32,579 nt of DNA, taken from positions 1 to 32,579 of the forward strand of contig JAOACY010000096.1 in assembly GCA_026417615.1 (NCBI GenBank), read 5' to 3'. The position numbers were made by a program, and so were the translations under genes. The notes under the pieces are model-generated. The model worked only from the letters and a program-made list of their open reading frames with translations, searched no databases and was not told the origin of the DNA. The stretch comes from Clostridia bacterium. GTDB lineage: Bacteria > Bacillota > Clostridia > Acetivibrionales > JAFADI01. This document shows, in pieces, positions 16,855-32,420 of this stretch (position 1 is its first letter; every line of letters starts with the position of its first letter).

Positions 16855-16961
16855 ATATATAGGGGAATTTTATTCAATTGTTTGAGGCGACAGACTGGGG
16901 GACTTTAAAAATAGTCCAAGAAGACTGAAGCCTAAATGCTTACAACTTAATAATAAATTTG

Positions 16962-17113
16962 CGCTTAATTCAAGGACGTTTCCATATCCTTGAAACGGGG
17001 GAACCACTTCGATGTGTATTACGCATCGAATAAGAAATTGGGGTGAGTCCGTTCGTAAGAACGGTAGGGTTATGTCTCTTTCGATCCGAATCCGTCAGCT
17101 AACCTCGTAAGCG
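16962..17113 (+). promoter_or_regulatory. ydaO-yuaA riboswitch (cyclic di-AMP)
   Basis: The segment carries the conserved blocks of the ydaO class in order: CGCTTAATTC (5' arm of P1), a variable hairpin (CAAGGA/TCCTTG), GAAACGGGGGAACCA, a hairpin TTCGATG/CATCGAA, GGGGTGAGTCC, a GNRA-like hairpin CCGTTC-GTAA-GAACGG, TAGGGT, CTCTTTCGATCCGAA, TCCGTCAGCTAACC and GTAAGCG (3' arm of P1). Cyclic di-AMP binding to this class normally lowers downstream expression. A strong intrinsic terminator follows 57 bases later and dapB starts after that, so premature termination of dapB mRNA at high c-di-AMP is the expected mechanism. Confidence 0.95.
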
Positions 17114-17170
17114 TTGGAGGAGAAGGTGATTGATATGCTTTATTAATGACGCACATTGTGCAATTTTTTA

Positions 17171-29461: not shown

Positions 29462-29490
29462 TTGCAATAATCAAGCCGGTATGATATTAT
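29462..29490 (+). promoter_or_regulatory. promoter of the ANTAR regulator transcript
   Basis: TTGCAA (29462-29467) and TATTAT (29485-29490) are 17 bases apart. The transcript would start near 29497 and run through a leader of about 170 bases that holds an intrinsic terminator and a further hairpin before the GTG start at 29669. Confidence 0.55.
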
Positions 29491-29537
29491 AAAAAAAATA
29501 ATTTTACTACCGCGACGTAGTTTTAAACAAGCATGGG

Positions 29538-29583
29538 AGCTTTCCTGACACAGCTTTGGTCTGTATGTCCGGAAGGCTTTTTT
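29538..29583 (+). terminator. leader terminator (attenuator) upstream of the ANTAR regulator
   Basis: AGCTTTCC (29538-29545) pairs with GGAAGGCT (29571-29578), with GACACAG and CTGTATGTC pairing inside, followed by a run of T to 29583. It lies between the promoter and the coding region, 86 bases before the start, so transcription must read through it. This is the layout of an attenuator. Which signal controls it is not visible. It may be autoregulated or serve as an upstream terminator for a short RNA. Confidence 0.75.
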
Positions 29584-29603
29584 ATTAAGCATCTGCAATT
29601 GTA

Positions 29604-29638
29604 AAGTGTGAGGGAATCAAAAGCTATATTTCACACTT
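29604..29638 (+). other. stem-loop in the ANTAR regulator leader
   Basis: AAGTGTGA (29604-29611) and TCACACTT (29631-29638) form an 8-bp perfect stem with a 19-base loop, between the leader terminator and the ribosome binding site AGGGAGG (29654-29660). No T run follows. It could affect translation start or RNA stability. Confidence 0.5.
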
Positions 29639-29668
29639 CTCATTCTGAACAGCAGGGAGGTGCAACCT

Positions 29669-30241
29669 GTGGAATATGGAAAGTTCATAATTACAGGAGA
29701 AGATAAAAAAACAATGGGCTCTATAAAAAATGCGCTTGCAGCAAACGGGCATACTTTTGTTGGCTACTCCAGGGAAACCAGCGCAATTTTAAGATATATA
29801 AGGAGTCATTCTCCAGAGTTTGTAATAATTGATTTGTGTCAGAATTTCAAGGAATTAAGACAATCTCTGGAGATAGTTGATGAAGAGCTCCTTGCAGCTG
29901 TTATTCTCGTGATGGACTCAAGACAGGAAGAAATTTTTGAATTTATCAGGAACTCCAGAGTTGTGACCTATATAGTCAAACCTGTTTTTGATGAGAGTAT
30001 AATTCAAATTGTAGATTTATCACTTATAAATTTTAATAGGGTCAAGGATTATGAGCAAAAGGTCAAAAAGCTGAATGAGACCTTAGAAAGCAGGAAAGTA
30101 GTTGAAAAGGCTAAATGGATACTTGTTGAAAAGGAAGGAATGACTGAGGCTGAGGCTTATGAGGCTATAAGAAGGAAAAGCAGGGAGAACAGAATTCCTA
30201 TGAAGGATATTGCTGAGGCAATAATCCTGACAAAAGGATAA
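29669..30241 (+). CDS. ANTAR-domain response regulator
   Basis: The GTG at 29669 is 8 bases after AGGGAGG, which makes it a better start than the GTG at 29660 that overlaps the site. The 190-residue protein has a receiver-like domain (about 1-120) with D55 in FVIIDL and K104 in YIVKPV, the phosphoacceptor Asp and conserved Lys; the acidic pair of a typical receiver is less clear. A coiled coil (about 120-145) leads to a C-terminal ANTAR domain (about 137-190, VVEKAKWILVEKEGMTEAEA then IPMKDIAEAI). ANTAR proteins bind paired RNA hairpins and prevent termination. The adjacent PII-amt leader is the likely target. Confidence 0.92.
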   Translation: MEYGKFIITGEDKKTMGSIKNALAANGHTFVGYSRETSAILRYIRSHSPEFVIIDLCQNFKELRQSLEIVDEELLAAVILVMDSRQEEIFEFIRNSRVVTYIVKPVFDESIIQIVDLSLINFNRVKDYEQKVKKLNETLESRKVVEKAKWILVEKEGMTEAEAYEAIRRKSRENRIPMKDIAEAIILTKG

Positions 30242-30306
30242 AATGCAAGAAATCATATCGTTCATTGCAAAAAAACATAAAAACAATAAAAATTATTAAA
30301 AAACTG

Positions 30307-30335
30307 TTGACATTATGAAGGATATGTTGTATTAT
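30307..30335 (+). promoter_or_regulatory. sigma-A promoter of the PII-amt operon
   Basis: A perfect TTGACA (30307-30312) and TATTAT (30330-30335) are separated by 17 bases. Transcription would start near 30342, just upstream of the two-hairpin leader. No binding site for a DNA-binding nitrogen regulator is recognisable. Confidence 0.75.
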
Positions 30336-30362
30336 TAATTCAAGTTAATAAATGGAAGGCAT

Positions 30363-30402
30363 TATAAAATTCCAGGCTGAGTTTTATACCTTCAAGGCTG
30401 AG
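30363..30402 (+). promoter_or_regulatory. candidate ANTAR-binding two-hairpin leader of PII-amt
   Basis: The motif TTC-(C/A)AGGCT-GAG occurs twice, 21 bases apart (30370-30381 and 30391-30402). In each copy TTC pairs with GAG (one T-G wobble) and leaves a six-base loop, CAGGCT or AAGGCT. The first hairpin has a long stem (TATAAAATTC against GAGTTTTATA), extendable by GAAGG (30355-30359) with CCTTC (30389-30393). The second has only 3 base pairs. ANTAR targets have two adjacent hairpins with six-base loops that carry A at position 1 and G at position 4. Both loops have G4, but only the second has A1. A terminator follows at once. Confidence 0.6.
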
Positions 30403-30404
30403 AC

Positions 30405-30449
30405 GCCAGAATCTTAAGGAAATATCTCCTTATTGGGTTCTGGCTTTTT
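30405..30449 (+). terminator. intrinsic terminator in the PII-amt leader
   Basis: GCCAGAA (30405-30411) pairs with TTCTGGC (30438-30444). An inner TAAGGA and TCCTTA stem lies within, and TTTTT follows to 30449. It is placed 36 bases before the PII start, after the two-hairpin motif. Its 5' arm GCC (30405-30407) can also pair with GGC (30396-30398) of the second hairpin region, which offers a way for an RNA-binding protein to prevent termination. Confidence 0.88.
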
Positions 30450-30485: not shown

Positions 30486-30824
30486 ATGAAAAAGCTGGAA
30501 ATTATTACAAGGCCGGAAAAGCTTGAAGATGTCAAGGAACTTATGAACAAATCGGGCATCTGCGGAATGACTGTCAGCATGGTGTCAGGCTGCGGCCTTC
30601 AGAAGGGAAGAAAGGAAATATACAGGGGTACGGAATACACCTTGAATCTGCTTCCTAAAGTAAAGATAGAAACAGTTGTAGCAGACAGGGTAGTGGACGG
30701 GCTGCTGGAGAGCTTGATACGAACTGTTAAGACAGGCGAAATCGGAGACGGAAAGATATTTGTCTATAACGTTGAAGATGCAGTGAAGATAAGAACAGGC
30801 GAAAGAGGAGACTTGGCAATCTAA
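30486..30824 (+). CDS. glnB: PII nitrogen regulatory protein
   Basis: This is a 112-residue protein, normal length for GlnB/GlnK. The T-loop segment IYRGTEYTLNLLPK carries Y51, the residue uridylylated in enterobacteria; whether it is modified here is unknown. GDGKIFV and RTGERGD near the C-terminus bind ATP/ADP and 2-oxoglutarate. Because amt follows after 30 bases, it is probably the GlnK-type partner that plugs the ammonium channel when nitrogen is plentiful. The start is preceded by AAAGGCGG. Confidence 0.95.
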   Translation: MKKLEIITRPEKLEDVKELMNKSGICGMTVSMVSGCGLQKGRKEIYRGTEYTLNLLPKVKIETVVADRVVDGLLESLIRTVKTGEIGDGKIFVYNVEDAVKIRTGERGDLAI

Positions 30825-30854: not shown

Positions 30855-32186
30855 ATGAAAAAGAAGATATTAATATTTGCTGTTGTTTTAGCTATAATGC
30901 TGATTCCCACACTTACTCTGGCAGCTGATGAAGAAATCGGCGAGGCAACAAAGATGGCTATAAACACAGTTTGGACATTATTGGCAGCTTTTCTGGTATT
31001 CTTCATGCAGGCCGGGTTTGCAATGGTTGAGACTGGTCTCACAAGAGCAAAGAATGCGGGAAACATTATAATGAAGAATTTAATGGATTTTGCCATAGGG
31101 TCAGTTGCATTTTTTGCAGTAGGTTTTGCATTCATGTTTGGCGCTGACCAGGGTGGATTTATAGGAATGTCAGGGTTCTTTGGGCTTGATAAAATGGAAC
31201 ATCTGGGACTAGGAATCCCACTTGAAGCATTCATAATCTTCCAGACTGTGTTTGCAGCTACTGCTGCCACAATAGTATCAGGAGCAATGGCTGAAAGGAC
31301 TAAATTTATAGCCTATGTCATATATAGCGCGGTAATAAGCCTTATTATCTATCCCGTGGTTGGCCACTGGGTGTGGGGTGGAGGATGGCTGTCAAAGATG
31401 GGTTTCATTGATTTTGCTGGTTCAACGGTAGTGCATTCTGTAGGAGGATGGGCGGCATTGATTGGTGCGGCTATAATAGGTCCTAGAATAGGAAAATACA
31501 ATAAAGACGGAAAACCCAATGCTATACCCGGACACAGCATAACCCTTGCGGCACTCGGTGTATTCATACTCTGGTTCGGATGGTTCGGATTTAACCCCGG
31601 AAGCACTCTGGCGGGAACGGATATGTCAATAGGCAGAATATCCATGACCACAAATCTTGCAGCAGCTGTCAGTGCCACTGTGGTTATGATAATTACATGG
31701 ATTAGATATGGGAAGCCGGATGTAAGTATGACACTGAACGGTGCTTTGGCAGGGTTGGTAGCAATTACAGCAGGTTGTGCAGCTGTCAGCATGATAGGTT
31801 CAATGTTTATAGGCCTGGTTGCAGGCATAGTGGTGGTATTCGGCATAGAATTTATTGACAGGGTACTAAAGATTGATGATCCTGTTGGTGCAATAGGAGT
31901 TCATGGTTTGTGCGGAGCAACAGGAACTATTCTGGTTGGCCTCTTTGCAACAGAAACCGGTGCGTTCTACGGCCACGGCTTCAACCAGCTGCTTGTTCAG
32001 GCCATTGGTGTGGGTGCTGTTGCAGTCTGGGTCATCGCAACTACCTTTGTGCTTTTTAATATAATTAAGGCTACAGTAGGATTGAGAGTTGAAAAAGAGC
32101 ATGAGGAAACCGGACTGGATATCCATGAACATGGTTCGGAGGCATACGCTGACTTCCATATAAAGACGGCTGACACACTATTTTAA
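30855..32186 (+). CDS. amt: ammonium transporter Amt
   Basis: This is a 443-residue protein with a signal peptide (about residues 1-23, ending TLTLA) and eleven expected membrane helices. The FFMQAGFAMVETGLTRAKN segment, MAERTK, and the pore His pair H194 (TVVHSVGG) and H350 (GVHGLCGATG) are conserved. The C-terminal tail (GLRVEKEHEETGLDIHEHGSEAY) is the region that contacts PII. It imports ammonium. It is co-transcribed with glnB under the ANTAR-type leader. AAAGGGATG precedes the start. Confidence 0.97.
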   Translation: MKKKILIFAVVLAIMLIPTLTLAADEEIGEATKMAINTVWTLLAAFLVFFMQAGFAMVETGLTRAKNAGNIIMKNLMDFAIGSVAFFAVGFAFMFGADQGGFIGMSGFFGLDKMEHLGLGIPLEAFIIFQTVFAATAATIVSGAMAERTKFIAYVIYSAVISLIIYPVVGHWVWGGGWLSKMGFIDFAGSTVVHSVGGWAALIGAAIIGPRIGKYNKDGKPNAIPGHSITLAALGVFILWFGWFGFNPGSTLAGTDMSIGRISMTTNLAAAVSATVVMIITWIRYGKPDVSMTLNGALAGLVAITAGCAAVSMIGSMFIGLVAGIVVVFGIEFIDRVLKIDDPVGAIGVHGLCGATGTILVGLFATETGAFYGHGFNQLLVQAIGVGAVAVWVIATTFVLFNIIKATVGLRVEKEHEETGLDIHEHGSEAYADFHIKTADTLF

Positions 32187-32240: not shown

Positions 32241-32296
32241 ATAACAATTAAATATTGATGCGAAATTCCTTGAATGAATTGAGTATCACAAGGCCA

Positions 32297-32336
32297 GGGC
32301 GCCCAAATCACAAAAAAGATTTTGGCGCCCTTTTTT
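32297..32336 (+). terminator. terminator of the PII-amt operon
   Basis: GGGCGCCCAAA (32297-32307) and TTTGGCGCCC (32321-32330) form a 10-bp stem with one bulged C, followed by TTTTTT. It lies 110 bases after the amt stop. Confidence 0.92.
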
Positions 32337-32420
32337 CATATGGGACATCCGGGAGTCCCTTATCAAACTCAAAGGCAGACATTCCTTGATTTCAAAAGTG
32401 AACCCGGAATTTATAAAGGA

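Follow-up and report, generated by a model that had tools for sequence, protein, structure and literature searches.

Candidate ANTAR-controlled attenuators with a shifted loop signature at a clostridial ANTAR-PII-amt locus

The dual-hairpin ANTAR RNA element was defined by Ramesh 2012 (PMC3369931), where such elements are also predicted ahead of the genes for P-II, the ammonium transporter and nitrogenase in Desulfotomaculum and Pelobacter. In the EutV-RNA structure (PMC8934654), the loop residue G4 is held by R142, K149, E160 and Y164, A1 is without contact, and Met172 serves as a plug in the loop; the exchange M172A abolishes binding. Why target loops keep an A1 that EutV does not touch is left unanswered by that structure. 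SELEX experiments with NasR returned A1, G4 and a C:G closing pair, and the loops of actinobacterial ANTAR RNAs are relaxed, with >50% for A1 and G4 (Mehta and Ramesh 2021, PMC8164766). For Clostridia, NitR and an ANTAR gene adjoining glnA were reported in C. acetobutylicum and C. thermocellum (as cited in PMC4676874).

Here, we analysed a stretch of 32,579 nt from a Clostridia bacterium (the window), which is contig C1 of a genome (G000) comprising 127 contigs at ~84% completeness. The search for related loci yielded one close relative, 'Clostridia bacterium isolate SKW158' being the nearest named. The ANTAR, PII and Amt identities assigned in the original prediction were borne out by Pfam, and the promoter and leader with intrinsic terminator which it placed before both the ANTAR gene and PII-amt are two real attenuators (leaders 1 and 2, Table 1). 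It had missed the ANTAR gene's own leader as an ANTAR target, where a two-hairpin element is present, and had overlooked a third element downstream of amt (leader 3, 32264-32337). There are three ANTAR genes in this genome; the other two are located downstream of glnA (contig C54) and on contig C22.

Table 1. Features of the ANTAR-PII-amt locus, in window coordinates. P1 and P2, first and second hairpin; R1 and R2, covariance models described in the text.
Feature	Position	Strand	Basis or score
Promoter-like site, leader 1: TTGCAA-17-TATTAT, extended -10 TG	29462..29490	+	consensus match only
Leader 1 P1 hairpin ACUAC-CGCGAC-GUAGU, loop C1 and G4	29506..29521	+	model R1, 33.0 bits (sequence in seed)
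Leader 1 P2 hairpin AAGC-AUGGGA-GCUU, loop A1 and G4	29529..29542	+	stem/terminator scan and model R1
Leader 1 intrinsic terminator with U tract	29537..29583	+	-18.7 kcal/mol
ANTAR regulator, degenerate receiver domain	29660..30241	+	PF03861, E=9e-20; Arg at EutV Met172 position
DNA dyad TGCAA-N16-TTGCA	30244..30269	+	conserved ahead of orthologous leaders; putative operator
Promoter-like site, leader 2: TTGACA-17-TATTAT	30307..30335	+	11/12 consensus matches
Leader 2 P1 hairpin, 10-bp stem, loop CAGGCU (30373-30378), C1 and G4	30363..30388	+	comparison and model
Leader 2 P2 hairpin GGC-UGAGAC-GCC, U1 and G4	30396..30407	+	orthologous leaders
Leader 2 intrinsic terminator with U tract	30405..30449	+	-20.5 kcal/mol
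PII nitrogen regulatory protein	30486..30824	+	PF00543, E=5.4e-29
Ammonium transporter Amt	30855..32186	+	PF00909, E=5.4e-133
Leader 3 P1 hairpin AAUUC-CUUGAAU-GAAUU, 7-nt loop, C1 and G4	32264..32280	+	model R2, 55.5 bits (sequence in seed)
Leader 3 P2 hairpin GGC-CAGGGC-GCC, C1 and G4	32292..32303	+	folding, model R2
Leader 3 intrinsic terminator with U tract	32296..32337	+	leader -30.8 kcal/mol, z -4.9

The two-hairpin element of leader 1 (29506-29542) was picked by a scan scoring stems and terminator that was blind to the loop letters. The 3' arm of its P2 falls inside the terminator's 5' arm. The terminator hairpin proper spans 29537-29579 and is followed by a T run. In leader 2, the direct repeat TTC-NAGGCT-GAG noticed previously was found at 30370-30381 and 30391-30402, with a spacing of 21 bases. 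Its first copy is a real hairpin that lacks A1, as described, and the stem can be extended to 10 bp. The second copy, TTC-AAGGCT-GAG, had been misassigned as P2. When seven orthologous PII/amt leaders are compared, 76% of the cells for this copy are paired, versus 100% for the hairpin GGC-NNNGNN-GCC five bases further on. The letters of the repeat are not kept, and the conserved signal is not the repeat itself. The 3' arm GCC of the correct P2 forms the terminator's 5' base (hairpin proper 30405-30444, then a T run), which is the overlap required by the ANTAR mechanism. The two-hairpin architecture with G4 and C-G closing pairs occurred in 0/1000 dinucleotide shuffles of either leader 1 or leader 2, and a hexaloop scan of both strands of the window detected it nowhere beyond these two leaders.

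In leader 3, P1 and P2 fold until the 3' half of the terminator is present; then the terminator forms. Scoring for promoters gave no good candidate at this leader. The same layout is located directly upstream of nifH in the relatives G001, G028, G053, G005, G009, G031, G030, G032, G003 and G029, and nifH of the genome studied here begins 166 bases into contig C40. Leader 3 is therefore probably the nifH leader, separated from its gene by a contig break, with the junction between C1 and C40 inferred. Nine of the eleven readable nifH leaders have 7-nt P1 loops.

To follow these elements beyond a single genome, we used a sample of 58 genomes of the order, 15 of which contain an orthologue of the window's ANTAR gene (14 relatives at 52-71% identity). 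Two covariance models were built, R1 from 12 leaders (threshold E<0.02) and R2 from eight nifH leaders (threshold E<0.01). R1 had matches in 10/15 genomes with the orthologue, many of them seed members, versus 0/43 without it; for R2 the numbers were 11/15 and 0/43. The held-out R1 matches all precede amt, PII, radical-SAM or homocitrate-synthase genes, with one of the radical-SAM genes sitting directly before the ANTAR gene (one genome), and the held-out R2 matches are the nifH leaders of G009, G029 and G005. Taken together, the genes preceded by two hairpins plus a terminator in the relatives are those for ANTAR, PII, Amt, NifH, radical-SAM proteins and homocitrate synthase. At significant scores, the elements are confined to orthologue-bearing genomes, where they precede nitrogen genes, a comparison which supports well the suggested control by ANTAR antitermination.

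With the loop letters left out of account, a stem-only scan identified the P1-P2-terminator arrangement in 16/30 flanks of orthologues versus 2/80 flanks of paralogues (p 2.4e-9), and the idea that the same elements lie beside paralogues was rejected. Among the 16 positives, G4 was present in 14 P1 and 15 P2 loops. The paired columns covary, with 96% of cells paired and a score of 0.47 versus 0.22 after shuffling (0/500). In some orthologous leaders, such as the PII leaders of G009 and G005, P1 was not recognisable. The gene nifH is present in 15/15 genomes with the orthologue compared to 19/43 without it (p 1e-4).

Several weaker matches were inspected as well. Five R1 matches with E 0.15-0.8 and a weak R2 match on contig C85 of the genome studied here were not leader-like, and most of them were located within ORFs. 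Another weak R2 match (E 0.04), in G005, is followed by a gene whose product looks like a nitrogenase-associated protein, judged from the translation only. Class-wide, two R1 matches are eut leaders with A1 and G4 in both loops and the other four are chance-like. The eut matches (L101 and L106, ~1500) are positioned upstream of an apparent eutA and downstream of a kinase-like gene, and are canonical EutV-type elements.

With regard to the dual-hairpin definition of Ramesh 2012, leaders 1 and 2 possess two hairpins of at least 3 bp with hexaloops, while the P1 heptaloop of leader 3, which is combined with a P2 hexaloop, falls outside a strict hexaloop definition. The overlap of P2 with an intrinsic terminator is present, and the A at loop position 1 is the feature from which these RNAs depart. 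In a partly hand-curated set of 54 loops from orthologue-linked leaders of the window and its relatives, G4 is kept in 53, including all six of the window, and A1 occurs in nine, one of them among the six of the window. Loops tied to Met-type ANTAR proteins (10 glnA P2 and four eut loops) have A1 in 12/14 cases versus these 9/54, with a p value of 2.7e-6 that is optimistic in counting related sequences as independent. Position 1 of the P1 loop is C or U in 22/24, and that of P2 varies with the class of the downstream gene, being mostly C or U before PII, amt and nifH and A or G before ANTAR and accessory genes. The closing C-G pair is kept along with G4, and both would be recognised in the usual way, with position 1 of P1 being mostly C or U and 7-nt P1 loops occurring.

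The protein departs from the textbook rule together with the loops. The residues contacting G4 in EutV are retained in the 15 orthologues, with R142, K149 and E160 invariant and Y164 being Y or F. The position of Met172, in contrast, is Arg in 15/15 orthologues versus Met in 45/45 paralogues of groups B and C in the order; Met also occupies it in the structures of EutV, NasR and Rv1626 and in the readable class-wide ANTAR sample. The suspicion voiced earlier that the recognition rule may differ here has gained ground: A1 is lost, G4 is kept and Met172 is exchanged for Arg. The loop change may be linked to this exchange, the two coinciding on one branch and representing a single evolutionary association rather than repeated evidence. 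By analogy with EutV, in which Met172 is essential, its loss could in principle also mean weak binding. In the receiver domain, the phospho-acceptor position is D in the window protein and D, E or S across the orthologues, M, L, F or V stands at the Ser/Thr position, and the first acidic residue is Gly throughout. Such a degenerate receiver, unlike that expected of the EutV type, makes ordinary phosphorylation unlikely, and because the conserved phosphorylation residues are absent, the predicted nitrogen signal probably reaches the protein in some other way.

Sequence and comparison show that the three structures exist, that they and the terminators exclude each other, that they are conserved and that they occur together with the orthologue. 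On these grounds we consider it very likely that the ANTAR protein, whose gene lies between leaders 1 and 2, controls all three attenuators of the window, a mechanism based on analogy and on strong comparative evidence. If no active ANTAR protein is available, each leader would proceed into its intrinsic terminator. Active protein would hold P1 and P2 folded, and the terminator could then not form because the 3' arm of P2 is part of its 5' arm. Readthrough would extend into the ANTAR gene itself, resulting in positive autoregulation, into PII-amt and most likely into the nif operon. We infer binding by the protein, antitermination, the linked paralogue as the reader and the reach of leader 3 across the contig break to nifH.

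The leaders could also be ANTAR antiterminators that are read by one of the other two paralogues, encoded behind glnA and on contig C22. The presence of these two further genes and the canonical A1 in P2 of leader 1 agree with this reading, as does the fact that P2 loops of ANTAR and accessory gene leaders begin with a purine, like those of glnA leaders. It appears improbable, however, given that the 43 genomes without the orthologue, several of which have paralogue B or C, contain no element at R1 E<0.02 or R2 E<0.01, and that P1 position 1 of the leaders considered here is mostly a pyrimidine. Attenuation by a leader peptide, in which a ribosome on a short leader ORF would choose between structures, is suggested by an ORF spanning leader 2, MEGIIKFQAEFYTFKAETPES*. 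Yet this ORF is without a Shine-Dalgarno-like sequence, and we rejected this very unlikely scheme since start codon, frame and length vary among the orthologues, where the hairpins, G4 and the closing pairs are kept. Least credible is an RNA-only sensor (riboswitch) or a set of unregulated plain terminators, for which strong terminators do exist, but a search of leaders 1 and 2 against Rfam gave no match with E as high as 1, no family reached its gathering score at leader 3, and the conserved part consists of two G4-loop mini-hairpins that track the ANTAR gene. The sole Rfam family found in the window is a c-di-AMP riboswitch (RF00379, 89.8 bits) at 16952-17129, away from the leaders.

Further observations concern the DNA upstream of the leaders and the glnA genes. 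In the relatives, a dyad of the form TGCA[A/G]-N16-[C/T]TGCA precedes the leaders of PII/nifH, ANTAR and glnA. The spacing is fixed: among 49 regions, spacing 16 accounts for 23 sites and no other spacing between 0 and 40 for more than four, and shuffles give a mean of 0.09 regions. The dyad may be the operator of a nitrogen transcription factor, although its bare pattern is also seen at 36 positions of the genome. A short repeat around TGCAAAAATCACT at C31:43029, C41:39631 and C67:13646 is by eye unrelated to this dyad. In glnA leaders (L004 ~5400 and relatives), the terminator is overlapped by a hexaloop hairpin, for example GAAC-AAUGGC-GUUC, with A or G at position 1 and G4. A clear P1 was absent by eye in these leaders, and the glnA leader is possibly a single-hexaloop attenuator for paralogue B.

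Returning to the preferred reading, control by the linked ANTAR protein, a more specific and tentative proposal, to which we give slightly less than an even chance, is that this ANTAR lineage swapped Met172 for Arg while its RNA targets moved along to a different code, with C or U replacing A at the first loop position and 7-nt P1 loops tolerated. The result would be an autoregulated antitermination system that is specific to nitrogen fixation and insulated from the A1-reading paralogues of the same cell. The locus offers a natural protein-RNA pair in which both A1 and the Met plug are changed, with the A1-type systems of paralogues in these genomes as controls, and the question of why A1 is kept can be addressed by swapping one residue and one base. 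In addition, it suggests a possible route for nif switching in a group of Clostridia. We found no description of the orthologue group, the leader of the ANTAR gene or the Arg exchange in the main text of Ramesh 2012, and none of the orthologue group or an Arg-172 class in the main texts of the open-access literature searched.

The kind of switch is already known; what differs is the recognition rule. EutV/eutP of Enterococcus faecalis (Ramesh 2012, PMC3369931; Walshe 2022, PMC8934654) shares with this locus a pair of small hairpins, of which the second overlaps the terminator, as well as the loop G4, the ANTAR domain and the G4-contacting residues. Here, in contrast, A1 of P1 is mostly C or U, most nifH leaders have a heptaloop in P1, Arg replaces the Met172 plug, the phosphorylation residues of the receiver are degenerate, and the genes are PII, amt and nif instead of eut. 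The predicted nitrogen regulons of Ramesh 2012 were built on A1 plus G4 in each loop, whereas A1 is mostly lost here. The clostridial NitR and glnA-adjoining ANTAR gene cited in PMC4676874 likewise connect an ANTAR protein similar to response regulators with the assimilation of ammonia, and this case resembles paralogue group B, encoded downstream of glnA, which keeps Met172 and is accompanied by glnA leader P2 loops that begin with A or G. Finally, the actinobacterial RNAs relax both loop positions, whereas in the system described here G4 is near-invariant and position 1 alone has moved.
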